Shown: piece by piece, positions 4,157-26,294 of the stretch
Layout: every line of letters begins with the position of its first letter
How positions within the stretch are numbered: the first letter of the stretch is position 1
Source: a virus
Length of the DNA stretch: 29,808 nt
Strand: one strand, 5' to 3'
Virus record (IMG/VR): IMGVR_UViG_3300028423_000707
Location: 1 to 29,808 of that record
Notes under the pieces: generated by a model
Database searches by the model: none
Told to the model about the DNA's origin: nothing
What the model saw: only the letters and a program-made list of their open reading frames with translations
Translations under genes and position numbers: made by a program

Positions 4157-5888
<1,732 letters not shown>

Positions 5889-5889
<1 letters not shown>

Positions 5890-6113: not shown

Positions 6114-6407
6114 ATGCAAATAGAAAATTTTAACTTCCCAGTGTTCGAATCGGACGAGTCTCCCTTGTGTGCTCAGACCGACCCAGAGATGTTTTATCCA
6201 GAGGAAATCGGTATTGCTTATGGCAATGGGAATTTAAAGTCTGTCTATAGATATGAACGTGAGGCTAAGGCTGTTTGTCGCCAGTGCCCGCTACAAGAAG
6301 CATGCTTGCGATTTGCCCTAGAAAATAGGGAGCAAGGTATCTGGGGAGGTACTACAGAAAATGACCGCAAGAGACTCCGAACAATACTAAGAACTCGTAA
6401 GATTTAG
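6114..6407 (+). CDS. whiB: WhiB-family iron-sulfur transcription factor
   Basis: 97 residues. It has the four cysteines that bind a 4Fe-4S cluster: one in 'SPLCAQTDPEMFYPE', then Cys-x-x-Cys-x5-Cys in 'AVCRQCPLQEAC'. The beta-turn 'GIWGG' follows, then a basic C-terminal helix (NDRKRLRTILRTRKI) for DNA contact. WhiB proteins are confined to actinobacteria and their phages; they bind the sigma-A region 4 and steer promoter choice. A phage copy (compare WhiBTM4 of mycobacteriophage TM4) could reprogram host transcription. A single-gene unit with its own promoter is likely. This is the strongest host marker in the window. Confidence 0.93.
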   Translation: MQIENFNFPVFESDESPLCAQTDPEMFYPEEIGIAYGNGNLKSVYRYEREAKAVCRQCPLQEACLRFALENREQGIWGGTTENDRKRLRTILRTRKI

Positions 6408-9216: not shown

Positions 9217-9462
9217 ATGGATGTCGCCCTCACAGTTGTCTCAATCTTGGTGGCTATCTGGGCTCTAATAAACATTGTTGCTATAGCTTTTGGTATTGGG
9301 TACGAGGTGGCAGACCGGGATTACAGGCAACGCTTAGAGGAAATGCTAGATAGATACAAGCCTTACGCGCCTACTCCCGAGATACGTGGCTTTAAGTATC
9401 AAATTAGAGAAGAATTCGGATTGGAGCACACGGCAGATGAGCTTAGACGCCCCTATTTCTAA
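9217..9462 (+). CDS. Small single-pass membrane protein
   Basis: 81 residues. An N-terminal hydrophobic segment (about residues 3-27, 'VVSILVAIWALINIVAIAFGIGYEV') is followed by a charged soluble tail with basic and acidic residues. It would sit in the membrane with the C terminus probably in the cytoplasm. The end overlaps the recombinase start by 26 bases. Unknown function. Confidence 0.65.
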   Translation: MDVALTVVSILVAIWALINIVAIAFGIGYEVADRDYRQRLEEMLDRYKPYAPTPEIRGFKYQIREEFGLEHTADELRRPYF

Positions 9463-10102
9463 AGCTTTGCTCTATTCAAGGGTGTCCACAGCCATGCAGG
9501 TTGAAGATGGTGTCTCTTTGGACGCCCAGGAGAGACAATTAATCACTGCAGCAGAGTTTCACGGGTTTAATGACTGGGAACTAGTGCGTGAAGAGGGTCG
9601 CTCGGGTAAAAGCATCAAAGGTAGGCCTAAGTTGCAGGAAACATTAAAAGTACTTGAACAGAAAGATGCAGACGCCCTTATTGTTACAAGACTTGACAGA
9701 CTGGCACGTTCTACTACAGACTTTCTCCAGATAGTAGATAAGTCTGCTAAAGAAGGATGGCGGTTAATCTTGCTTGATTTGAACCTAGATACATCGACGT
9801 ATCAGGGCAGGTTTGTGACAACAGTGATGTCGGCGCTCGCTGAGATGGAGCGTGGCATAATCGCTGAGCGTGCTAAAGATATTCACAAAGACCGCCGCGC
9901 CCAGGGGATTGAGTGGGGCAAAGACATCGGGCCAAAGGCAGATGACCGACAAGATTTAATAGACGCAATTATTAAATATAGAAGCAAAGGCTTGTCTTTT
10001 AAGAAAATAGCTGACAAGCTAAACCTAGAAGGCTACCCCACAAAAAATGGGGGGCTATGGTATGCTACAACTGTTCAGAACGTGTGGAAGCGAAATCAAT
10101 GA
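9437..10102 (+). CDS. Small serine recombinase (resolvase/invertase family)
   Basis: 221 residues from the ATG at 9437. The catalytic domain shows 'LLYSRVST' with nucleophile Ser17, 'DAQERQL', 'REEGRSGKSIKGRP' and 'VTRLDRLARSTTDF', all hallmarks of serine recombinases, then 'MSALAEMERGIIAERAKD' (the E helix). The C-terminal 45 residues ('GLSFKKIADKLNLEGYPTKNG...VQNVWKR') form a helix-turn-helix DNA-binding part. The length matches resolvases and invertases rather than large serine integrases. It likely acts on a short site such as the 9168-9197 palindrome. It overlaps its neighbours on both sides (26 bases upstream, ATGA downstream) and so is co-expressed with the following cassette. Confidence 0.88.
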   Translation: MSLDAPISKALLYSRVSTAMQVEDGVSLDAQERQLITAAEFHGFNDWELVREEGRSGKSIKGRPKLQETLKVLEQKDADALIVTRLDRLARSTTDFLQIVDKSAKEGWRLILLDLNLDTSTYQGRFVTTVMSALAEMERGIIAERAKDIHKDRRAQGIEWGKDIGPKADDRQDLIDAIIKYRSKGLSFKKIADKLNLEGYPTKNGGLWYATTVQNVWKRNQ

Positions 10103-10824
10103 GACGCAAATCTATAGAATTCTTACCTTCCGAAGACTTTGTCAAATATCTGTCGGAAAAGCCTGTAGTGGCAGCAAAGTCGCTTCCTCGGTGGTTTAGG
10201 GAATATAGTCAGTTTTTTGGACCAATCAACGACAAATTTAAATGGTTAGGTAGTGAAGGAAGTAATGCTTCTGTGAAGGCTTGCGTCCCCTTACTTGATG
10301 GAATGACAGCTGGATACACTATTCCACTTCCTTTTGATATAGAGGTAACTACGCTTCCAGATGGTCAAAAGGAGTTTCGTTGGAGAAGCGAGCAGTTAGA
10401 TGGACTAATTACTGGTCACCACGAGGACCAAGTACCAAGGCAAATGATTCCAAAAGATTTTTCTACAGTTCCTTATAAATTTAGGAGCTTTTGGTCAGTA
10501 AAAACACCCCCTGGGTACTCTGCAATGTTCGTACACCCTTTAAATAGGTTTGACTTACCTTTTGTGTCTATGTCTGCAATAGTAGATACAGATGACTATC
10601 ACATCCCCGTCAACTTCCCTTTCGTTTTGCGGCAAGATTTTTCTGGGATTATTGAAGCTGGTACTCCAATGATTCAAGTGATTCCTTTTAAGAGAGACTC
10701 CTGGGATTCGAGCGTCAAGCCAGAGATAGACCGCGAGCTCATAGAGAGAAATGAAGTTGACATGATGACTCGTATGTGGAAGATGTATAAAAAGCAGTAC
10801 TGGAAGCGCAAGGATTTTAAGTAG
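10099..10824 (+). CDS. Conserved protein of unknown function, paralogue A of the halogenase-linked pair
   Basis: 241 residues from an ATGA overlap with the recombinase. It aligns well with the protein at 11170: 'AAKSLPRWF', 'SVKACVPLLDGMTAGYT', 'TPPGYSAMFVHPLNRFDLPF', 'NFPFVLRQDFSGIIEAGTP', 'IQVIPFKRDSW' and a basic 'YKKQYWKRKDF' tail. The many constant His, Asn, Arg and Asp residues (HPxNRxDLPF) could make a binding or active site; the fold looks all-beta. I do not know a biochemical role; a DUF6065-like relationship is tentative. The position just ahead of two halogenases, with a second copy between, suggests a shared pathway. Confidence 0.7.
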   Translation: MRRKSIEFLPSEDFVKYLSEKPVVAAKSLPRWFREYSQFFGPINDKFKWLGSEGSNASVKACVPLLDGMTAGYTIPLPFDIEVTTLPDGQKEFRWRSEQLDGLITGHHEDQVPRQMIPKDFSTVPYKFRSFWSVKTPPGYSAMFVHPLNRFDLPFVSMSAIVDTDDYHIPVNFPFVLRQDFSGIIEAGTPMIQVIPFKRDSWDSSVKPEIDRELIERNEVDMMTRMWKMYKKQYWKRKDFK

Positions 10825-10826
10825 CA

Positions 10827-11180
10827 ATGTCCAGGAGGAAGCAAAAACTTGTAGACGCCGCTATTAAAAACGGCGCTCCTATTGCTGACTGGACTATTAA
10901 GGAAGAAATGCAGATTAATGGACGCCATGTAACAAAGGGCACTGAGCTAAAGATTCGTGGTGAGCGGGGCCGGTTTAGGTTCGTTAAATACGTCTACAAC
11001 GAAAGATTAGACGTAGACTGGATTGATGTTTGGGGTGGTCCCAAGAGGTGTCCAGCTCTAAGAAGCTTCAGGGTTGACCAGGTGCATAGGGTTCACTATA
11101 AGAATCAAACCAATGAAGCTTTGGCTGAGGAGTATAAGGCTAAGAAAGAACTGTTAAAGAAAGAGCAAGATGATGTTTGA
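10827..11180 (+). CDS. Conserved small basic actinophage protein
   Basis: 117 residues. The core 'INGRHVTKGTELKIRGERGRFRFVKYV', 'WIDVWGGPK', 'RSFRVDQVHRVHYKNQT' is a pattern I recognise from actinobacteriophages; it looks like a small beta-barrel followed by a charged helix. It is highly basic, so nucleic-acid contact is possible. Function is unknown. It lies between the two paralogues and overlaps the second by 11 bases. Confidence 0.65.
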   Translation: MSRRKQKLVDAAIKNGAPIADWTIKEEMQINGRHVTKGTELKIRGERGRFRFVKYVYNERLDVDWIDVWGGPKRCPALRSFRVDQVHRVHYKNQTNEALAEEYKAKKELLKKEQDDV

Positions 11181-11934
11181 GTTTTTTAGAAAAAAGAACA
11201 AGTTGGTTGAGCCGGGTGAACAACTAATAGAGTTTGGAAGAACAGCTGATTGGATTCCTTATCCACAGCCAGCCAGTAAATCTATTCCTGACTGGTATAA
11301 AAATACCCCAAAGTACACTAATGGTAATGAACCAATTATGGGTTCGGAGCATCAATCTAGTAATTTGAGTGTTAAATACTGTATTCCATTCTTAGATGCC
11401 CTGACAGTTGGATACACTGCACATTTATGGTGTGACCTTAAGGTAGAGCAAAGACCGGCAGGGCCTTGGTTTACTTGGCGCGTGGAGCCATCGGTATTAG
11501 ATGGCCGGAATCCTGAAGGTTTAGAGACGTTACCTATCCCGCATGGGCACTCAGATAATCATTTTATTTGGCACCAGCCATTTAGTGTTAGGGTTCCTAA
11601 GGGGTATTCAGTGCTATACACCCACCCTTTTAATAGGTATGACCTTCCATTTACCACTTTGACTGGGATACACGACTCAGACACTATTCTTCCTCCCGGT
11701 AATTTTCCATTTCATCTAAAGGAAGGTTTTGAAGGCATCATACCTTCAGGCACGCCTATATTTCAGATGCTACCTTTTAAACGTGAAGATTGGGTAGGAC
11801 TTGGTAATCCAGAATTACAAAAAGAAGGTCACGACCGTTCAATGAAGTCCGTGAGTATGGTAGCTGGCTATTACAAGAAAAAGCGTTGGTCACGAAAGAA
11901 CTACAGAATGGTTGAGATAGAAGATGACATTTAA
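11170..11934 (+). CDS. Conserved protein of unknown function, paralogue B of the halogenase-linked pair
   Basis: 254 residues; tandem ATGs at 11170 and 11173 are both possible starts. It shares with the 10099 protein the blocks 'SKSIPDWY', 'SVKYCIPFLDALTVGYT', 'VPKGYSVLYTHPFNRYDLPF', 'NFPFHLKEGFEGIIPSGTP', 'FQMLPFKREDW' and a basic C terminus. The HPxNRxDLPF and GTPxxQxxPFKRxxW motifs are the best constant points. There is no signal peptide or membrane helix, so it is cytoplasmic or virion-borne. It overlaps the first halogenase by 11 bases, which points to stoichiometric co-translation with it. Role unknown; a substrate-binding or carrier partner of the halogenase is conjecture. Confidence 0.7.
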   Translation: MMFEFFRKKNKLVEPGEQLIEFGRTADWIPYPQPASKSIPDWYKNTPKYTNGNEPIMGSEHQSSNLSVKYCIPFLDALTVGYTAHLWCDLKVEQRPAGPWFTWRVEPSVLDGRNPEGLETLPIPHGHSDNHFIWHQPFSVRVPKGYSVLYTHPFNRYDLPFTTLTGIHDSDTILPPGNFPFHLKEGFEGIIPSGTPIFQMLPFKREDWVGLGNPELQKEGHDRSMKSVSMVAGYYKKKRWSRKNYRMVEIEDDI

Positions 11935-13516
11935 AGATAACCACAAACAGCGATTCGTAGTTCTAGGGGCTGGTACAGCAGGTACTATAGCTGCTTTATA
12001 TCTACAAACTGTGGATGAAAATTGCAAGATAACTATTGTCAAGTCAGATAGTGTTGGCATACTAGGTTCTGGAGAGGGAACCACACCTGCGTTTGTAAAG
12101 ATGATGGACGCCTGTGGTATACCTTTTGAGAGACTGGTCCGACGCACAGGTGCAACCGTTAAAAACGGAATTAGGTTTTGTGGGTGGAATAAAAACAACA
12201 AACAGCAAAGCGACCAGTTTGTACACTCGTTTGGCGCTGGGTTAGGTTTGGGTATTGTAGATTTAACTCCTTCCGAGCAGGTAGTCCCTTTTAGTGGCGC
12301 ATTTCTTATGAATGCTCAGTATGGAGAGTCACCAGATAAAAGTGATTTAACAGCTAAAGCAGCTAAGCTATACAAGGCAAATTTTGCTCCTCGAGACGGC
12401 AGCCAAGTAGGTGACGACGCAGGTGGTCAGAGAGATATCTCTGAGTTGGCTGCCATATCAAAGTTTGCAGTTCATTTTGACGCTAATGCCTTAGCCGAAG
12501 AACTACTTCTTGTCGCTCAAGAGAGGGGTATAGACGTTGTAGAGGGTAAGGTGAAGGACTTTGTGCAAAACGAAAAAGGGGATGTTACAAGCTTAGTTCT
12601 AAATAATGATTCTTCTATACCTCTAGACTTTTTAATTGATGCTAGTGGTTTTAGCAGGATGTTCCCTAAAGCGTTTAAGTCTAAGTGGGTTAGCTGGAAG
12701 AAGTATCTACCTGTTGACTCTGCTATACCTTTTTTCTTACCAAAAACAAAAAAGATACCAGCTATAACTGACGCTATTGCCATGAACTATGGGTGGATGT
12801 GGAAGATACCTCTACAACACAGATGGGGGTGTGGGTATGTTTTTGATTCTTCGCTTATTTCAGCTGAGGAAGCCGCAGCTGAGGCTGCAGAATTTTTAGG
12901 AGCCAAAGTCGAGTACGACACAGTGCTGACTTTTGAGCCAGGTTACTACAAGACCCCGTGGCAACGCAATGTAGTTTCTATTGGACTAGCTAGCAGTTTC
13001 GTCGAGCCACTAGAGGCAACTTCTATATGGGCAACTATCTTACAGCTTGAAGAACTTTTTACCCGTCCTGAAATGATTCACAATCCTAATCAAGAGAGCA
13101 GAGATTTTTTCAATAAAAGGAATGAGCAACTCCAGCAAAACATTGCTGCAATGATTCAACTTCATTATCAAACTAGGCGGAAGGACACAGAGTTTTGGCA
13201 AAAGTTTGATGGAACTAATCTAGTTCCTAGGCTAGCTGAGATTTATGACATTCTTAAATATAGAACTTTAGATTGGAGAGATATAGAGGGTGGAGACCCT
13301 TGGCACTTAGATTCTTGGTATTACGTTGGTATGGGTGTCAAGCACTCAGACATGCTAAGAAGATTAGGGGAGGCTACGGAATACAACCTCTATAGTCAAA
13401 AAGTTAAGTTTGATTACGAGTACCTGAGGAAACAACAAGCTATGGGGGCGATTAACCATCTTTACGACCATAGAACATTCTTAGAGTTACTAGGAGCAGA
13501 ACCTTGGCAAGATTAG
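11924..13516 (+). CDS. Flavin-dependent halogenase (tryptophan halogenase family), copy 1
   Basis: 530 residues, full length for PrnA/RebH-type enzymes, which use FADH2, O2 and chloride or bromide to halogenate electron-rich rings. It begins with the FAD-binding GAGTAG (residues 15-20) and has 'GSGEGTTP' (49-55). Lys80 in 'GATVKNGIRF' sits where the catalytic lysine (Lys79 of PrnA and RebH) is expected. The halogenase motif WMWKIP (291-296) is intact, and 'GLASSFVEPLEATSI' holds the active-site glutamate region (361-367). All hallmark residues are present, so it looks active. The substrate cannot be told from sequence; free tryptophan, an indole, a peptide or a tRNA/protein side chain are all open. 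It overlaps both neighbours. Confidence 0.92.
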   Translation: MTFKDNHKQRFVVLGAGTAGTIAALYLQTVDENCKITIVKSDSVGILGSGEGTTPAFVKMMDACGIPFERLVRRTGATVKNGIRFCGWNKNNKQQSDQFVHSFGAGLGLGIVDLTPSEQVVPFSGAFLMNAQYGESPDKSDLTAKAAKLYKANFAPRDGSQVGDDAGGQRDISELAAISKFAVHFDANALAEELLLVAQERGIDVVEGKVKDFVQNEKGDVTSLVLNNDSSIPLDFLIDASGFSRMFPKAFKSKWVSWKKYLPVDSAIPFFLPKTKKIPAITDAIAMNYGWMWKIPLQHRWGCGYVFDSSLISAEEAAAEAAEFLGAKVEYDTVLTFEPGYYKTPWQRNVVSIGLASSFVEPLEATSIWATILQLEELFTRPEMIHNPNQESRDFFNKRNEQLQQNIAAMIQLHYQTRRKDTEFWQKFDGTNLVPRLAEIYDILKYRTLDWRDIEGGDPWHLDSWYYVGMGVKHSDMLRRLGEATEYNLYSQKVKFDYEYLRKQQAMGAINHLYDHRTFLELLGAEPWQD

Positions 13517-13794
13517 AGTGGTTGTCCGCTCTAAAAACTATGTTAAAGACCAGCTACTGGGATAAACCAAACACTGTTGAGTTCTTTGCCTTCATGATAA
13601 AAATTATTATTATTATCCCTGGGCTAATCTGGGGCGTCTATATCTGGTGGCTATATCTGTTTTCCTTGGGAACCAGCTTTGCGTTAGTATGGTCTTCGAC
13701 TGTTAAGACGTTGCCAACTATTATTATTTTGAACCTAGCTTGGATATTCTTATCGTCATTTGTACTTATCAGAGAGTTTTTATCATGGATATAA
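13504..13794 (+). CDS. Two-helix membrane protein between the halogenases
   Basis: Up to 96 residues from a TTG at 13504 with an AGGAG 7 bases before it; an ATG at 13540 without ribosome site would give 84 residues. Two long hydrophobic stretches are clear: 'IKIIIIIPGLIWGVYIWWLYL' and 'LPTIIILNLAWIFLSSFVLI'. It overlaps halogenase 1 by 13 bases and halogenase 2 by 10. Nothing identifies a function. Its place between two redox enzymes allows a membrane anchor or transporter subunit as guesses only. Confidence 0.6.
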   Translation: MARLEWLSALKTMLKTSYWDKPNTVEFFAFMIKIIIIIPGLIWGVYIWWLYLFSLGTSFALVWSSTVKTLPTIIILNLAWIFLSSFVLIREFLSWI

Positions 13795-15302
13795 CTATAT
13801 GTGGCGGGGGTACAGCTGGCTGGATTGCTGCCTTCCACCTCCTTCGGGCGTCGAATATTAAAAAACTAACTGTAATAGAGTCATCAAAAGTTGGGATTAT
13901 TGGGGCGGGTGAAGCATCAAGCGGTTTGCTTTACTCTTTGCTGGAAGATGAGTACAGCAATAGCGACTTTTCTATGTATGAAAAAAGTTGGCCAAAAGTT
14001 GACCTTGAGCACTTCAACAATAGTGTCGAAGCAAGTCCAAAGTATGGGATTTTTCATAAAGATTGGGCAAAAAAGCCTGGTGGATACTTTGGACCAATAA
14101 TTGGTAGTCCAACAGAAAAAGTTCATCAAGATTTTTTGTTTCTAGCAGCAGTAGCATCCAGTCAGGGCAGGAAAGGTCATACTGCAAGTGAGTTTGGAAT
14201 TGCTTACGACCTAAACGCTTGGCCAATAAGTGAAGGGCCAGCTTTACACTTTGACGGAAATAAGTTTTCTAAATATATAAGGGATTTCTTACTTAGCTAT
14301 GAAAATCGGCTAAATGTAGTAGACGCAACTATTGATAACGTCAATCTAGACAGCAGGGGTTGGATTGAAAGTGTCAACTTAGATGATGGCTCTGAAGTTA
14401 AAAGCGACTTTTGGTTTGATGCTACAGGTTTTAAGAAAGTTTTAATGAGCAAGATGGGGACAGAGTGGACTTCCTATAAAGATGTGCTACCTGTGGATAG
14501 TGCCATACCTTTTATAGAGGAGTATCAACCCGAGGAACGGGTAAAACCCATGACATTGGCTCAGGCTATGAGCTCTGGCTGGATGTGGAACTCACCTTTG
14601 GACCATAGAAAAGGAGCTGGCTATGTATACTCTAGTCAGTTTGTTAGCGATGAAGATGCCTTAAAAGAAGTTGAAGAAGTAGTTGGTCATGAAGTCGACC
14701 CAATAAAAACAATTAAGTTTGAATCAGGCAGGATTTCAGAAACTTGGAAAAATAACTGCATAGCTATAGGGCTAGCATCATCTTTCTTAGAACCACTAGA
14801 AGCTACATCTATCCACTCCACAATTGTGCAAATGATTGCTTTCACAAGAGAGTACTTAACTCCTACTGTAAATACAACTGTAAAAGAATCCTATATTACT
14901 AGCTACAACGAGCGTATAAGTAAGGTGCTAGAGCATTACAAGGACTTTACCGTTTTTCACTACCAAGGGGGGAGGACTGACTCCGAGTTTTGGAGATATA
15001 TAACTAATGAGAAAGCCACTACTCCAGTTGTTGAAAATTACATTGAAAAGGCTCAAAACAACATTATCCCTGGCGATACATATTTTAATGACAAGTTTGC
15101 ACTCGATGGACTTTGGAAGTGGACCTTATCTGGGCTTGACTTAATCACTCCTGCCCAGGCAAATAAGCAATTAAAATTTCATAATATGTACAGGTTGTCT
15201 ACTGATAAGCTTGCTATGTACATACAAGAAAACAAAGAAATTTATAGACAAAGAGGTATCCCATTTATCTTTTTGCCAAGAGGAGCTGGTTGGGAACGTT
15301 GA
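13785..15302 (+). CDS. Flavin-dependent halogenase (tryptophan halogenase family), divergent copy 2
   Basis: 505 residues from the ATG at 13785 (AGAGAG upstream). FAD motif GGGTAG (residues 7-12), then 'GAGEASS' (40-46) lacking the usual Thr-Pro. Lys86 in 'EASPKYGIFHKDW' matches the catalytic lysine position. The halogenase motif reads WMWNSP (266-271), with Ser where Ile is normal in WxWxIP. 'GLASSFLEPLEATSI' (329-343) is kept, and 'LPVDSAIPF' is shared with copy 1. Overall it is clearly a paralogue, not a recent duplicate. The altered motif suggests a different substrate pocket or weaker halogenation. Its TGA overlaps the next TTG start. Confidence 0.9.
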   Translation: MDITICGGGTAGWIAAFHLLRASNIKKLTVIESSKVGIIGAGEASSGLLYSLLEDEYSNSDFSMYEKSWPKVDLEHFNNSVEASPKYGIFHKDWAKKPGGYFGPIIGSPTEKVHQDFLFLAAVASSQGRKGHTASEFGIAYDLNAWPISEGPALHFDGNKFSKYIRDFLLSYENRLNVVDATIDNVNLDSRGWIESVNLDDGSEVKSDFWFDATGFKKVLMSKMGTEWTSYKDVLPVDSAIPFIEEYQPEERVKPMTLAQAMSSGWMWNSPLDHRKGAGYVYSSQFVSDEDALKEVEEVVGHEVDPIKTIKFESGRISETWKNNCIAIGLASSFLEPLEATSIHSTIVQMIAFTREYLTPTVNTTVKESYITSYNERISKVLEHYKDFTVFHYQGGRTDSEFWRYITNEKATTPVVENYIEKAQNNIIPGDTYFNDKFALDGLWKWTLSGLDLITPAQANKQLKFHNMYRLSTDKLAMYIQENKEIYRQRGIPFIFLPRGAGWER

Positions 15303-15565
15303 GTACAGATAATAAAAATGAACTTATGAAAACTGGAGCTAAGCTAGAGCATGAAAGGCTAGCTAAAGTCGCTTTCGGTTATAGGCTTAGAAATGACGAA
15401 GATTCTGCTAACGCTAGAGAATTCGCTGCAGCGGGCGAAGTCACTGAGCAACGTAGGATTTTAGCCCTATTTGAAGAGAGGTTGCAACTGGGAGATAATC
15501 CAGAGGCGGCTCAATGGGCAATCGAAGTGATTAGAACAAGCACCGACTCTAGGTATCTTTCTTAG
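15299..15565 (+). CDS. Small helical hypothetical protein
   Basis: 88 residues from the TTG at 15299, which overlaps the halogenase stop (TTGA); a TTG at 15290 is also possible, with AGGAG just before it. The sequence is charged and looks helical ('KLEHERLAKVAFGYRLRNDEDSANAREFAAAGEV'). There are no cysteines and no membrane segment. It belongs to the halogenase transcription unit by overlap. I do not recognise it. Confidence 0.55.
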   Translation: MSTDNKNELMKTGAKLEHERLAKVAFGYRLRNDEDSANAREFAAAGEVTEQRRILALFEERLQLGDNPEAAQWAIEVIRTSTDSRYLS

Positions 15566-15569
15566 AACA

Positions 15570-16298
15570 TTGATTTACGAGTGGAAACCAGCCCAGGGCG
15601 TACGTAATTATGGCGACGCTCTAGGTGAGATAGTAGCCGAGGCTCTAGATGTAGAGTCAATGGATAAGTCAATCGACAAAGTTTACTTCCCTATTGGAAG
15701 TGTTATTAGCAACGAACATATTGAATACTGGGTCAAACTAAAACGGACGCCAGTATTTATTGGCTGTGGCTGGAGGGGTACAGAGCTAGACCCCGAGCTA
15801 GTTAAGAAGTGCGCATTCATTGGAGTTCGTGGACCAATAACTGCAAACGCTGTTGAAGCTTGTGGGCTAGACCGTCCTACTGTCACCGGCGACAGCGCCT
15901 ACATCGCTTTCGACCACCTTGCGATAGACGCCCCTACTGTAGACAGAATGGGAACGCTTCTAGTTCCACATATTGCAAGTAAGGTGAAAAGGTCGACAAC
16001 TCCGGAAAAGTTTGGTGTGGACAGAATTGTTTTGCCAAGGGTGATTACCAGGCAAGACACTGTGGACATGGTTAATACAATTGCAATGAGTGAGTTTGTG
16101 TTGGCTGGTGCTATGCACGCCGCTATTACATCTCATGCGTTTGGTGTTCCCTTTGCACCTTTTAATCCAGGCAACGAACCCAAGATGAAGTGGTATGACT
16201 GGTTCGAGTCCATTGGAGTGCCCCGCAGAGAGATTAGGTTCTGCAAAGATTATCAGCAGGGCTATGAATGGTATAAATCAATTTCACAATATCTTTGA
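15570..16298 (+). CDS. Polysaccharide pyruvyl transferase-like protein
   Basis: 242 residues from a TTG at 15570. It fits the PS_pyruv_trans family: 'NYGDALGEI' near the N terminus, 'FIGCGWRG', 'RGPITANAV', 'VTGDSAYI' and the strongly typical 'FVLAGAMHAAITSHAFGVPFAPF'. Family members transfer pyruvate from phosphoenolpyruvate to sugars of surface polysaccharides, making ketals that change charge and can mask receptors. It is shorter than many bacterial members (about 300-350), so it could be a trimmed phage form. It closes the halogenase block. A role in altering the host surface or phage glycans is inference. Confidence 0.75.
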   Translation: MIYEWKPAQGVRNYGDALGEIVAEALDVESMDKSIDKVYFPIGSVISNEHIEYWVKLKRTPVFIGCGWRGTELDPELVKKCAFIGVRGPITANAVEACGLDRPTVTGDSAYIAFDHLAIDAPTVDRMGTLLVPHIASKVKRSTTPEKFGVDRIVLPRVITRQDTVDMVNTIAMSEFVLAGAMHAAITSHAFGVPFAPFNPGNEPKMKWYDWFESIGVPRREIRFCKDYQQGYEWYKSISQYL

Positions 16299-21699: not shown

Positions 21700-22677
21700 T
21701 TACTTCTCAGGGAACTTAATCTCCTGACCAATACGGATTAGGTTTACGTTAGTGATGTTGTTGTGTCGAGCAAGCTCACTTACGCTGAACCCGTGCTCTA
21801 TTGCAATCTTTGAAAGTGTGTCACCTGGCCTTACTTGATATGACTTTGGTGCCTCTTCCTTCTTTTCCTCTTTTGGAGCTTCTTTTGGAGCTTCTGGCTT
21901 TTTCTCTTCTACCTTCTTGTTAGCCTCATAAGCCTGACGGGTTCCATACTTTTTAGCCTTGTCGTTGCCTCTGCCAGCCCATGGGTTGCGAGTAGGTTTT
22001 GCTCCAGCTTTAACTGTCTCACAGAAGAATTGCTTGCCATTGTAGTAGAGGCAGATTTCGTGAGTGTCTTTAAGAGTTACGCCCTTCATATGGGTTTTAT
22101 CTGCCTTGACAGTCTTATACCAAACGCTCTTGCCATCTTTACGCATACGTAGCTTGGCTCCTACTGGGAAGTTGTCAATCTTCACAACAACGTTTCCATT
22201 TTTTGGAATCAGCTTTACCTCAACGTCAGCCTCTGGTCCTGGACCTGCGTGCTTGTTGATGAACTTGTATAGGTCGTAAACTTTGCCCCAGAAAATACCT
22301 TTTCTTGAGGTGGACAAAGTTGCATGGAGGTGGGGACCGGAACTTGCCTTGCCTGTATTTCCAAGCAGTGCGATGGTGTCGCCCATCTTTACTTTGTCGC
22401 CTACTTTTAGGGTTGGCTTCTTTGCAAGGTGTGCGTATCCGATGTACCAGGTCTTGCCTTCTGCCCAAGCAGTTTGGACGATGCACCAACCAAGGATTTT
22501 TGAGTACTGGACGAGGGCAATTGTTCCGTCAGTGATGGCTGGGATAGGGGTTTTGTTTGGTTTAGCCCAGTCGGTTCCGCGGTGTGGTCCTAGACCATTG
22601 CGAATCCTAAAGGCGGAGCGAGTTCCAAAATAACCGGTAATACGGTCCTCTGAAAATGGCTGCATCCAGTTGGCCAC
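21700..22677 (-). CDS. Endolysin: M23 peptidase with C-terminal LysM domain
   Basis: 325 residues from a GTG at 22677 with AGGAG 9 bases before it. Residues 1-130 are an M23 (LytM-type) zinc metallopeptidase: His32-x3-Asp36 ('GPHRGTDWA'), His83 in 'YAHL' and His116-x-His118 in 'GPHLHATL'. A middle part of unknown kind and a Lys/Glu/Pro-rich linker lead to a LysM at about 281-325 ('YQVRPGDTLSKIAIEHGFSVSELARHNNI...GQEIKFP') that binds peptidoglycan. There is no signal peptide, so export needs a holin. It would cut peptide cross-links of the actinobacterial wall; a tail-associated role is the alternative. Confidence 0.88.
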   Translation of the reverse strand: MANWMQPFSEDRITGYFGTRSAFRIRNGLGPHRGTDWAKPNKTPIPAITDGTIALVQYSKILGWCIVQTAWAEGKTWYIGYAHLAKKPTLKVGDKVKMGDTIALLGNTGKASSGPHLHATLSTSRKGIFWGKVYDLYKFINKHAGPGPEADVEVKLIPKNGNVVVKIDNFPVGAKLRMRKDGKSVWYKTVKADKTHMKGVTLKDTHEICLYYNGKQFFCETVKAGAKPTRNPWAGRGNDKAKKYGTRQAYEANKKVEEKKPEAPKEAPKEEKKEEAPKSYQVRPGDTLSKIAIEHGFSVSELARHNNITNVNLIRIGQEIKFPEK

Positions 22678-22749
22678 GATAGTTCTCCTAATAAATAAGT
22701 TGGGTTGTAGTTCTATTTTACCTAAACCTAAAACGGGCGATTTCTGTGG

Positions 22750-22755
22750 TAAGAT
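22750..22755 (+). promoter_or_regulatory. -10 box of a probable leaderless transcript
   Basis: TAAGAT, 7 bases before the ATG at 22763, with no ribosome site. It lies in the divergent region facing the endolysin gene. Confidence 0.4.
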
Positions 22756-22762
22756 TTGCCTC

Positions 22763-23233
22763 ATGAGCGACTATGGATTACTTTTAAGAACTTTTCATAT
22801 AGAGGTACAAAAAGATGGATTTCCGCCTGAGTATGACCAACTAAATGATGCTGCTCCATATTTTTTAGCAGCTGAGGACTACACAATTGAGCCTAACGAA
22901 AAAAAGATTCTCAGGACCGGCTGTCACATAAAATATCCCGATATTGAGTTTGCTATGGTATACAGCCCTATGCCGCAGTTGTTACTAGAAGGTCTAATGC
23001 TGTTTGACAATAATAGGATTATAGATTCTTGGGATAATACTGAGCTTCACTGTATGATTTGGAATACTACTGATGAACCAAAAACCATCAAGCGTGGACA
23101 AAGAATCTTTAGAGGTGCAATTGTTCTAACTTCTCATGCAAGTTTTGTCGATGCAGATACTGAATATGTAACTAGTTGGAAGCCTGAAGACGAATTACCT
23201 GCTAACAGAATCAGATGGAAGTTGATTAGATGA
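22763..23233 (+). CDS. Degenerate dUTPase-fold protein
   Basis: 156 residues. The C-terminal two thirds follow the trimeric dUTPase pattern: 'YTIEPNEKKILRTGCHIKYP' (motif 1 region), 'GLMLFDNNRIIDS' (motif 3, usually GLxxxxGxIDxxYxG) and 'LHCMIWNTTDEPKTIKRGQRIFRGAIV' (the 'VILINLGDEPFTIKRGDRIAQLV' stretch). The motif 2 RSG, the motif 3 tyrosine and the C-terminal P-loop-like motif 5 are not seen. It may have lost dUTP hydrolysis and act as a regulator, as some phage dUTPases do, or handle another nucleotide. ATGA overlap with the next gene. Confidence 0.65.
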   Translation: MSDYGLLLRTFHIEVQKDGFPPEYDQLNDAAPYFLAAEDYTIEPNEKKILRTGCHIKYPDIEFAMVYSPMPQLLLEGLMLFDNNRIIDSWDNTELHCMIWNTTDEPKTIKRGQRIFRGAIVLTSHASFVDADTEYVTSWKPEDELPANRIRWKLIR

Positions 23234-24078: not shown

Positions 24079-24243
24079 TTATTTCTTGAATCTTCTGTAA
24101 GCTGCGAATCCTGGTGCTCCACCTGCTCTAGCTGCAGGGGCGGAGGTGGCTGCTGCGGCGGCTGCTTGAGAAGCAACTTGTGCAACCTGCTGGACAATGA
24201 CAGATGCAACTACTACCTTCTGAGCGTCTTCTCGGACTTCGGG
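24079..24243 (-). pseudogene. Out-of-frame C-terminal extension of the secreted protein
   Basis: In the frame one base back, 'PEVREDAQKVVVASVIVQQVAQVASQ' and an Ala-rich, Gly/Pro-containing end 'GAPGFAAYRRFKK' continue smoothly from the helical C terminus of the secreted protein and stop at TAA, 15 bases before the next gene. The amphipathic to hydrophobic helix with a basic end looks like a membrane anchor or a sorting tail. The join is at the GGG run 24241-24243 and would need one extra G. No start codon serves it alone. Confidence 0.6.
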
Positions 24244-26294
24244 ATTGATGGAATGGCTGCAATTTCTTCGTTTAGCTCTGGGTCATCAGCTTCGGCAACA
24301 ACTGCAAGAGCTGTAAGGGCTGCTTCATACTCTGGGGAGTCTGGTTCTGAAGATTCAAAGACTTCTTTAACCGCTTCTTTAACTATTTCTTGTTGAACGG
24401 GTGTAATCTTTTTTGGGTCCTCAAGCTGAACTAGCTTCTCAACAGATTCGATAACATTGTCTTGTGAGATATTTTCTACTAGCTCTTGTTGCTCTGCCTC
24501 TGGCGTTGGCTCTGGCTCTGGTTCGCTATCATCAGACTCGACTGGAACTGATTCGTCGTCAACAGGCTCTTCAGATGGCTCAGGAGATTCGTCGGAATCA
24601 GGCTCTTCAGGCAAAGGTTCGGGCTCTGGCTCCGGCTCGGGAACAGTGGGAGTGGGAGGCGTAGGCTGTGACTCTTCAGGTTCTGGCTCTGGCTCCTCTG
24701 TTTCTTCTGGTTGTGTTTCTTCTGGCTCGGGTTCTTCTTCAACGTCCTCTGAGTCTTCCAGAGGCTCATCTTCTTCTGTGTCAGTCTCTGGTGTTTCTTC
24801 TTCTGGTTCTGGCTCTGGTTCAATCTCCGGCTCTGGCTCAGGTGTAACCTCTGGCATAGGGGTAGGAGCTGGGGCTACATAAATAGGCTGAGGTGGGGGT
24901 GGAGGCGGAACTTCTGATTGAACTTGTTCTTGGACATGTTGAACTTTTTCTGAAGCAGTGGAAGTTGCTACGGTTGCACTATCAGCAGACATAACAGCTG
25001 TATTCACTGCTTCCTCTGCGTAGCTGGCAGCAACTGCTTCATCATAAATGGCGGTCTCGGTGTTGAGCTTTGCCATGTCGTACTCTGCTGATTTCTGGTC
25101 ACGAGTCTGAAAAGCGTCAGCTTCTATAGCTTGCAATCCTTCTAGAGTTGAAACCTCTGTATTGAAAGTAGCTGTTGTAGTCTCGACGTTTTCGTAAAGC
25201 TGTGGGTCAACAGGTTCGCCATCTTGTGCGTAATAAATGTCGTCAACTATGTACCAGTCGGAATCTGGCGGTAGAACTACGTTGTCTACATAGTAGCCAT
25301 CTGGACTCTTGTAGACCTCGTAGGTTGTGTACTCAGGATTGCCTTCTGGATAGCTAGAGACGTTGTCTTCAATCATCCAAGAATCTTGAGCTGTAGTTCC
25401 TTCAGAGTCAAAAATGTTGACGGTAGCAATGGTGTCACCATTCTTTGCGTAAACGCTCATACCAATCTCAGAAATTTGCTTGACGTTTGGGAAATCAATA
25501 ACAGTGTCGCGAGTAGTGTTCTGTAGTTGGAGCGTGGTTCCGTCAAAGTGCGTGGTGTATTGGTCAGTAATAGAAGTCTGGTCAACTTCAGTTTCGGTGA
25601 CTGGTTGCCCGTCTTTGAGGATTTGAATGTCGGTGCTGGAAGTTGTGAAGTTTCCGTCAGCGTCGGTAAAGGATTCTGTAGTTTTTATCTTTGATGCATC
25701 CTCGGCAGCAGCAAGTTCTTGTTCGGCTGTATTCTTTACAACCATTGCATCATCTACAACTATTTCTTGGTTAGCAACATCAGTGGAAGCTATAGAGACG
25801 TTGTCTTCGGCTGTAGCAAGTTCAGTCTCGGCGGTAGCTTCTTCCTGCATAAAGAGGTCTGTGGTGTCTTTAGCAAGAGCGTAGTCGTTAACTGCTTGTT
25901 GTGCAGTCTCTAGGTCAGTCTGTGCGTTGGCAGTTTCGACCTTTGCAGATTCGATTAGAGAGTCAGCTTCAACAATGTCGTTTTGCAAGTCTTCGGAAGG
26001 TGAAGGAACTTCTGATTCTTTTTGTGCAACAGCATCAGAAAGGTCTTGCTCTGCTTGTGCAATTGTTGATTCGTCCGTAGAAATCTGTGCAGCAGTTTGG
26101 TCAACGGCAGACTGTAAGTCATCTGGAGTAGGGGGAGGGGGTGGTGGTTCAGACGTTGTTACTTCGGAAGAAGAACTGTCAGGAGAGACTACTTCTTCAG
26201 TGGCGTAGGCATTGCTAGCGTGCGAAACCAAGGAGGCCGTAAAAGCTAACGCGGTCCCTGAGAGTGTAAGTATGGCAAAGCGTGCAAAGGTCAT
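24213..26294 (-). CDS. Large secreted Pro/Glu-repeat protein with coiled coils
   Basis: 693 residues as read. A clear signal peptide (residues 1-31, 'RFAILTLSGTALAFTASLVS', cleavage near NAYA|TEE) is followed by PPPPPP and a long Ala/Glu/Gln helical region (about 56-200) with coiled-coil character. Next come a beta-rich domain (about 205-370) with many Tyr and Asp, a second helical region, then a Pro-Glu/acidic repeat tract (about 463-601, PEPEPEPE) like wall-spanning stalks of surface proteins. The C terminus is helical, and the frame then runs out at a TAG with 'KSEKTLRR'; a one-base change at 24241-24243 would extend it by 54 residues. Its ATG overlaps the holin stop (ATGA). A phage product exported by the host Sec system that reaches through the cell wall is likely; its target is unknown. 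Confidence 0.75.
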   Translation of the reverse strand: MTFARFAILTLSGTALAFTASLVSHASNAYATEEVVSPDSSSSEVTTSEPPPPPPTPDDLQSAVDQTAAQISTDESTIAQAEQDLSDAVAQKESEVPSPSEDLQNDIVEADSLIESAKVETANAQTDLETAQQAVNDYALAKDTTDLFMQEEATAETELATAEDNVSIASTDVANQEIVVDDAMVVKNTAEQELAAAEDASKIKTTESFTDADGNFTTSSTDIQILKDGQPVTETEVDQTSITDQYTTHFDGTTLQLQNTTRDTVIDFPNVKQISEIGMSVYAKNGDTIATVNIFDSEGTTAQDSWMIEDNVSSYPEGNPEYTTYEVYKSPDGYYVDNVVLPPDSDWYIVDDIYYAQDGEPVDPQLYENVETTTATFNTEVSTLEGLQAIEADAFQTRDQKSAEYDMAKLNTETAIYDEAVAASYAEEAVNTAVMSADSATVATSTASEKVQHVQEQVQSEVPPPPPPQPIYVAPAPTPMPEVTPEPEPEIEPEPEPEEETPETDTEEDEPLEDSEDVEEEPEPEETQPEETEEPEPEPEESQPTPPTPTVPEPEPEPEPLPEEPDSDESPEPSEEPVDDESVPVESDDSEPEPEPTPEAEQQELVENISQDNVIESVEKLVQLEDPKKITPVQQEIVKEAVKEVFESSEPDSPEYEAALTALAVVAEADDPELNEEIAAIPSIPKSEKTLRR

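Follow-up and report, generated by a model that had tools for sequence, protein, structure and literature searches.

An actinophage-like virus encodes two halogenase-family enzymes around a small membrane protein that recurs beside phage halogenases

Ever since prnA genes came to light in cyanophages, it has been asked what phage halogenases act on in nature. One survey counted a tryptophan halogenase in 20 of 153 cyanophages (PMC10452541), a review of 2010 lists two prnA genes for Syn9 (Table 2 of PMC2984593), and a halogenase of the Actinomycetia phage DSL-LC01 was published in 2023 (PMC10611076). The roles suggested for these enzymes, antibiotic protection or tailoring of host metabolites, are explicitly speculative (PMC2984593, PMC7824862), and the viral halogenase VirX1 has a large, unusually open active site with broad substrate use (PMC8407142). 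Here, we analyzed the IMG/VR virus record IMGVR_UViG_3300028423_000707, whose 29,808 bases constitute the window, and focused on an operon in which two genes of the flavin-dependent halogenase family, Hal1 and Hal2, flank the gene for a 96-amino-acid (aa) membrane protein, TM96.

The original prediction for this DNA held that two full-length, paralogous and divergent halogenase-family genes lie in an operon of actinophage-like DNA, and this observation is confirmed. It further treated VirX1 as an isolated viral precedent and two copies per phage as unheard of, and here it did not hold up. Among 50,697 phage records, tblastn yielded homologues of Hal1 in 66 and of Hal2 in 70; most of these phages are cyanophages, and the actinophage DSL-LC01 is one of the others. 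In Syn10, two adjacent halogenase genes are followed by a phrog_7084 gene, and the second of the two encodes exactly VirX1 (6QGM). As tandem pairs also occur in the environmental loci L050 and L051, and L063 has two halogenases, these cases together with Syn9 make clear that two halogenases per phage are not new. What looks new is TM96 and its association with halogenases, for which we found no earlier description; this association and the decay of one halogenase in a sister phage are the aspects worth following.

Comparison with the named systems brings out both kinship and distance. Syn10 shares with our locus the paired halogenases of the same family and motifs and the phrog_7084 gene alongside, but VirX1 belongs to a clade other than that of Hal1, the Syn10 region examined contains no TM96, and the host is cyanobacterial. 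DSL-LC01 is likewise a freshwater actinophage with WhiB, and its halogenase groups loosely with Hal1 in our tree, whereas it carries a single halogenase with WVSKIP and EPLD variants that adjoins collagen-like and glycosyltransferase genes, again with no TM96 in the region examined. PrnA, RebH and PyrH have the family, the flavin adenine dinucleotide (FAD) motif and the catalytic Lys and Glu in common with Hal1 and Hal2, yet their sequences are distant, their tryptophan-holding C-terminal region does not align, and this contig has no biosynthetic cluster. The nearest bacterial sequences, BrvH-like and other Proteobacterial PF04820 enzymes (29-35% identity), stand apart from the viral Hal1 clade, and none of 80 bacterial halogenase loci contained TM96; in BrvH, a Ser replaces RebH G360 in the halide loop (PMC5945002), as in the EPLEATS segment of Hal1 and Hal2.

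Both halogenase open reading frames (ORFs) are full length, with no internal stops. Relative to a cut-off of 21 bits for Pfam Trp_halogenase (PF04820), Hal1 reached 323 bits (E = 3.5e-96) and Hal2 270 bits (E = 6.6e-80); the PHROG 'tryptophan halogenase' (phrog_2928) matched at E = 5.6e-88 and 1.2e-88, respectively, and the closest structures by sequence were solved flavin-dependent halogenases (E ~1e-51 for Hal1, ~1e-53 for Hal2). The Hal2 ORF as listed spans 13740-15302 and opens with a TTG at 13740, upstream of an ATG at 13785 that is most likely the true start, because homologues start M-D-x-T-I-x-G-G-G. As the original prediction stated, both proteins possess the FAD-binding GxGxxG motif (GAGTAG in Hal1, GGGTAG in Hal2), the catalytic lysine (K80 and K86, equivalent to PrnA K79) and an intact EPLEATS segment with the active-site glutamate (E364 and E339, equivalent to PrnA E346). 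The lysine is kept in 73 of 74 dereplicated phage homologues and the glutamate in 71; at the position of this glutamate, the cyanophage halogenases of S-RIM44 and S-PM2 (L059, L062) read EPLQ instead of EPLE. The third family motif, WxWxIP, is thought to block monooxygenase activity. It is intact in Hal1 (WMWKIP) and reads WMWNSP in Hal2, with both Trp and the Pro retained, and 13 of the 74 phage homologues have another residue (T, V, A or S) at position I295 of the motif. The halogenase residues are kept in both proteins, which goes against their falling with FAD monooxygenases that lack halogenation, and a halogenating role is plausible.

Hal1 and Hal2 are only 30% identical and fall into separate clades in a tree of 95 halogenases, ruling them out as recent duplicates. 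The viral clade that holds Hal1 lies apart from PrnA and from the sampled bacterial enzymes, while RebH and PyrH, which are outside the tree, were compared by phmmer. In a comparison by sequence, the phmmer alignment to PrnA stops near residue 408 of Hal1 and ~440 of Hal2.

The genes between 10057 and 15565 run in one direction in the order D1, 117-aa protein, D2, Hal1, TM96, Hal2, 91-aa protein. The operon reading is supported by the overlap of adjoining genes: five junctions, from 117-aa/D2 through Hal2/91-aa, overlap by 10-13 base pairs (bp), among them D2/Hal1 by 11, Hal1/TM96 by 13, TM96/Hal2 by 10 and Hal2/91-aa by 13 bp. The original prediction had correctly seen an operon but left out the TM96 gene between the halogenases, and we found in a neighborhood comparison that TM96 recurs next to halogenases. 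As halogenase-based ascertainment was to be avoided, loci were gathered by the TM96 sequence alone (best 80 of 427 relatives, 79 new loci). A halogenase lay within 150 bp of TM96 in 67 of the 79 viral loci and within 10 kb in 6 more, counts that are not independent because the contigs are related (all samples together amount to 64 distinct C-terminal sequences). The commonest gap between the two genes was -3, an ATGA-type 4-bp overlap, and the neighboring enzymes occupy three halogenase clades: the large Hal1 clade, the VirX1 clade with both Syn10 enzymes, and the small Hal2 clade. Hence, TM96 is probably a working partner of the halogenases. Being conserved and translationally coupled, it provides a concrete handle on the substrate question and points to a membrane-linked substrate or a transport step.

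An AlphaFold2 model of TM96 built with 58 homologues (predicted local distance difference test score, pLDDT, 84) consists of an amphipathic N-terminal helix and a bundle of three transmembrane (TM) helices, and the invariant residues include K33, N77, W48, W49, W80, P39 and G40. Foldseek returned no significant match for this model; recurring among the non-significant ones (E ~3 or more, TM-scores ~0.41-0.62) were the mitochondrial pyruvate carrier (MPC) and SemiSWEET chains in the PDB and PnuC, PQ-loop and SemiSWEET proteins in the viral library. TM96 resembles the triple-helix bundles of SemiSWEET, MPC and PnuC in size and in its three predicted TM helices, but sequence searches of Pfam, the PDB and NCBIfam yielded no family match, these three included. 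Membership in the MPC, SWEET or PnuC families by sequence was thereby rejected, and 'carrier-like' is a lead only, drawn from the predicted model. We also considered a bacterial source for TM96, but a single scan by sequence pattern across 84,980 species genomes of bacteria and archaea returned no relative, nor did the GenBank phage records.

A sister phage, contig IMGVR_UViG_3300026094_000728 (L090/L143), is syntenic and keeps the order D-D-Hal1-TM96-Hal2. Its housekeeping genes are 80-94% identical to those of our virus (NrdE 91%, NrdF 92-94%, serine recombinase 81%, 117-aa protein 80%) and its TM96 is 79-82% identical, compared to 48-49% for D1, 59% for D2, 49% for Hal2 and 31% for Hal1, which marks the halogenase pair as one of the most variable portions of these genomes. 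The sister Hal2 retains the Lys and the Glu. In the sister Hal1, a Cys occupies the lysine position, the third motif reads YLWKTP, and LLENKEAVG replaces FVEPLEATS; it is the only one of the 74 dereplicated phage homologues without the lysine. As its catalytic residues are gone, the sister Hal1 is probably no longer a halogenase. Overall, the comparison fits halogenases that diverge fast or get replaced while the TM96 between them stays conserved. The gene immediately preceding the cassette encodes a recombinase. In dN/dS (the ratio of nonsynonymous to synonymous substitution) the comparison of the halogenases of the two phages is saturated at synonymous sites.

We suggest, with a probability of roughly 0.5, that the locus is a phage-encoded halogenation cassette, in which Hal1 and Hal2 are ancient, separately derived members of VirX1's family that share one operon with TM96. 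Function and substrate of both enzymes are what we infer here. Members of the halogenase family convert reduced FAD (FADH2), O2 and halide to hypohalous acid (HOX), which the conserved lysine delivers. No flavin reductase was recognized in the window, and a host enzyme is therefore assumed: during infection, a host flavin reductase would supply FADH2 to Hal1 and Hal2, which would form HOX from O2 and halide, pass it to the conserved lysine, and then halogenate an electron-rich aromatic group. TM96 would couple this reaction to the membrane: it may be a small carrier for substrate or product, or it may anchor the enzymes close to a substrate bound to the membrane. Free tryptophan is an unlikely natural substrate, because the C-terminal region with which PrnA binds tryptophan shows no alignment to Hal1 and because the phage relative VirX1 pairs its large open site with broad substrates. 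Hal1 and Hal2 may each modify a different position of one and the same substrate; alternatively, Hal1 may be on its way to becoming a non-catalytic partner, as appears to have happened to the sister-phage copy. Extended to aquatic, mostly actinophage-like phages at large, we propose only tentatively that a SWEET-/carrier-like TM96 moves or presents the substrate or product of one or two co-translated halogenases, with TM96 remaining conserved as the halogenases rapidly diversify or are exchanged, and with either member of a pair able to turn non-catalytic.

Several points weigh against a membrane-linked halogenation cassette. Six of the 79 TM96 loci had no halogenase in the DNA examined, and 26 of 52 loci recruited by Hal1 or Hal2 lacked TM96, so the partnership is not obligate; in several of the halogenase-free loci, TM96 sits among replication genes. 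The fold matches behind a carrier-like TM96 have E-values of ~3 or more and are not joined by any sequence match. Halogenation by Hal1 may be dispensable, given that the Hal1 of the sister phage is without the catalytic residues, and Hal2 departs from the family motif at WxWxIP. This same WMWNSP would suit an unlikely alternative, namely that Hal1 and Hal2, like QhpG, LodB or GoxB, are flavin monooxygenases within the PF04820 superfamily and hydroxylate, instead of halogenating, a residue of a peptide or protein. QhpG, LodB and GoxB, flavoenzymes that act on, or are needed for, the maturation of peptidyl tryptophan (PMC7876137), are among the only NCBIfam matches of Hal1 and Hal2, all far below the cut-off, and such weak sequence matches keep a hydroxylase or protein-modifying role open, for Hal2 above all. 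The halogenase CmlS is, however, also among these weak matches, and the nearest solved proteins are halogenases; Hal1 has every motif, and the halogenase Lys and Glu stand in both enzymes as in nearly all phage homologues.

The surroundings of the cassette bear on what else it might produce. The polysaccharide pyruvyl transferase-like gene directly downstream, and the adenosine phosphosulfate (APS) kinase, glycosyltransferase, sulfotransferase-like and 2-oxoglutarate (2OG)-oxygenase-like genes in related loci, would suit a small halogenated metabolite derived from an amino acid or a sugar, acting as a toxin or a signal that favors the infected host. A similar system was proposed for halogenase clusters of jumbo cyanophages (PMC7824862), and a carrier-like TM96 would suit export, but these neighboring genes lack conservation (the sister phage has no pyruvyl transferase) and there is no synthetase-like core gene nearby, which leaves this explanation rather doubtful. 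We regard it as improbable that Hal1 and Hal2 halogenate a virion or tail-fiber protein or a host surface glycan: while halogenases adjoin tail-fiber or collagen-like genes in Syn10, S-SRM01 and DSL-LC01, they do not neighbor tail genes in P-SSM2, S-PM2 and the WhiB-linked environmental loci. A collagen-like, tail-fiber-type protein is encoded at the left edge of our contig and the active site of VirX1 is unusually open (PMC8407142), but that collagen-like gene is ~11 kb from Hal1 and Hal2, and a membrane partner would be unexpected for a virion substrate.

Table 1. Positions of the cassette and of other features in the window.
Feature	Position	Strand	Remarks
Hal1, flavin-dependent halogenase family, 530 aa	11924..13516	+	GxGxxG residues 15-20, K80, WMWKIP 291-296, EPLE with E364
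Hal1 K80 codon	12161..12163	+	motif position; aligned with PrnA K79
Hal1 E364 codon	13013..13015	+	second Glu of EPLE; PrnA E346 equivalent
TM96, 96-aa membrane protein: N-terminal amphipathic helix and three predicted TM helices	13504..13794	+	overlaps Hal1 3' end and Hal2 5' end
Hal2, flavin-dependent halogenase family, 505 aa from ATG 13785	13785..15302	+	K86, WMWNSP 266-271, E339
Hal2 K86 codon	14040..14042	+	catalytic lysine position
Hal2 E339 codon	14799..14801	+	EPLE glutamate
WhiB-like regulator, actinophage marker	6114..6407	+	
Serine recombinase, directly upstream of cassette	9386..10102	+	Pfam/PHROG matches
D1, paralogue of D2 (phrog_7084; weak DUF6065)	10057..10824	+	
117-aa protein inside operon, 80% identical in sister phage	10827..11180	+	
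D2, phrog_7084/DUF6065-like; model resembles dUTPase/dCTP deaminase fold	11170..11934	+	
91-aa protein overlapping Hal2 end, conserved in sister phage	15290..15565	+	
Polysaccharide pyruvyl transferase-like (PF04230), absent from sister phage	15570..16298	+	

The presence of phrog_7084 proteins beside the halogenase pair both here and in Syn10 gave rise to the idea that they are obligate halogenase partners. D1 and D2 are members of phrog_7084 and weakly match DUF6065, but among 80 loci recruited by D, no more than 9 contain a halogenase, and D can thus not be regarded as a dedicated partner. Moreover, phrog_7084/DUF6065 proteins are multi-copy (2-4) in many of the recruited viral contigs, and the D2 model (pLDDT 66) gave Foldseek matches that, among the top 50 listed, were nearly all dUTPase or dCTP deaminase (best E 1.1e-3, PDB), and we rejected the idea. 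A separate dUTPase-family gene lies at 22670-23233 of the contig.

The contig is phage rather than a bacterial genomic island, in keeping with the original prediction: alongside its origin from a virus record, it carries genes for WhiB, NrdI, NrdE, NrdF, dUTPase and a pyrimidine-dimer glycosylase, an M23/LysM endolysin at 21700-22764, and tail-type proteins at the left edge. The pyruvyl transferase-like gene starts a few bases after the 91-aa gene. WhiB counts as a marker of actinophages; along with a guanine-cytosine (GC) content of ~43%, it supports an actinophage-like virus. Cultured Nanopelagicales phages have a GC content of 44.7-44.8% (PMC10202952), near that of this contig, which is probably from a freshwater-type virus of actinobacteria; no near-identical DNA was found in GenBank phages.

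Other parts of the contig also drew our attention. The NrdF frame (5049-5889) is broken by a stop at 5732 after '...LLMELF', with the C-terminal part continuing in another frame to 5889, and the protein is without ~37 residues that the sister phage has, reflecting a true deletion or else an error of the assembly. Between nrdE and nrdF, positions 4157-5062 encode a protein with weak resemblance to glycoside hydrolase family 130 that is absent from the sister contig L090. On the minus strand, 24213-26294 encodes a 693-aa repetitive, acidic and proline-rich protein whose N-terminus is signal-like and which matched no PHROG. In many of the viral contigs (L030, L034, L043 and others), a conserved order is found just upstream of the halogenase: a 117-aa protein, a 70-aa protein, WhiB and 77-80-aa proteins, followed by the halogenase. 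The halogenase loci L009, L047 and L004 hint at sulfation alongside halogenation, as they encode an APS-kinase plus nucleotidyltransferase-like protein and proteins judged sulfotransferase-like by eye, with no Pfam match (L009:8758-9519, L047:8267-8959, L004:6923-7732).

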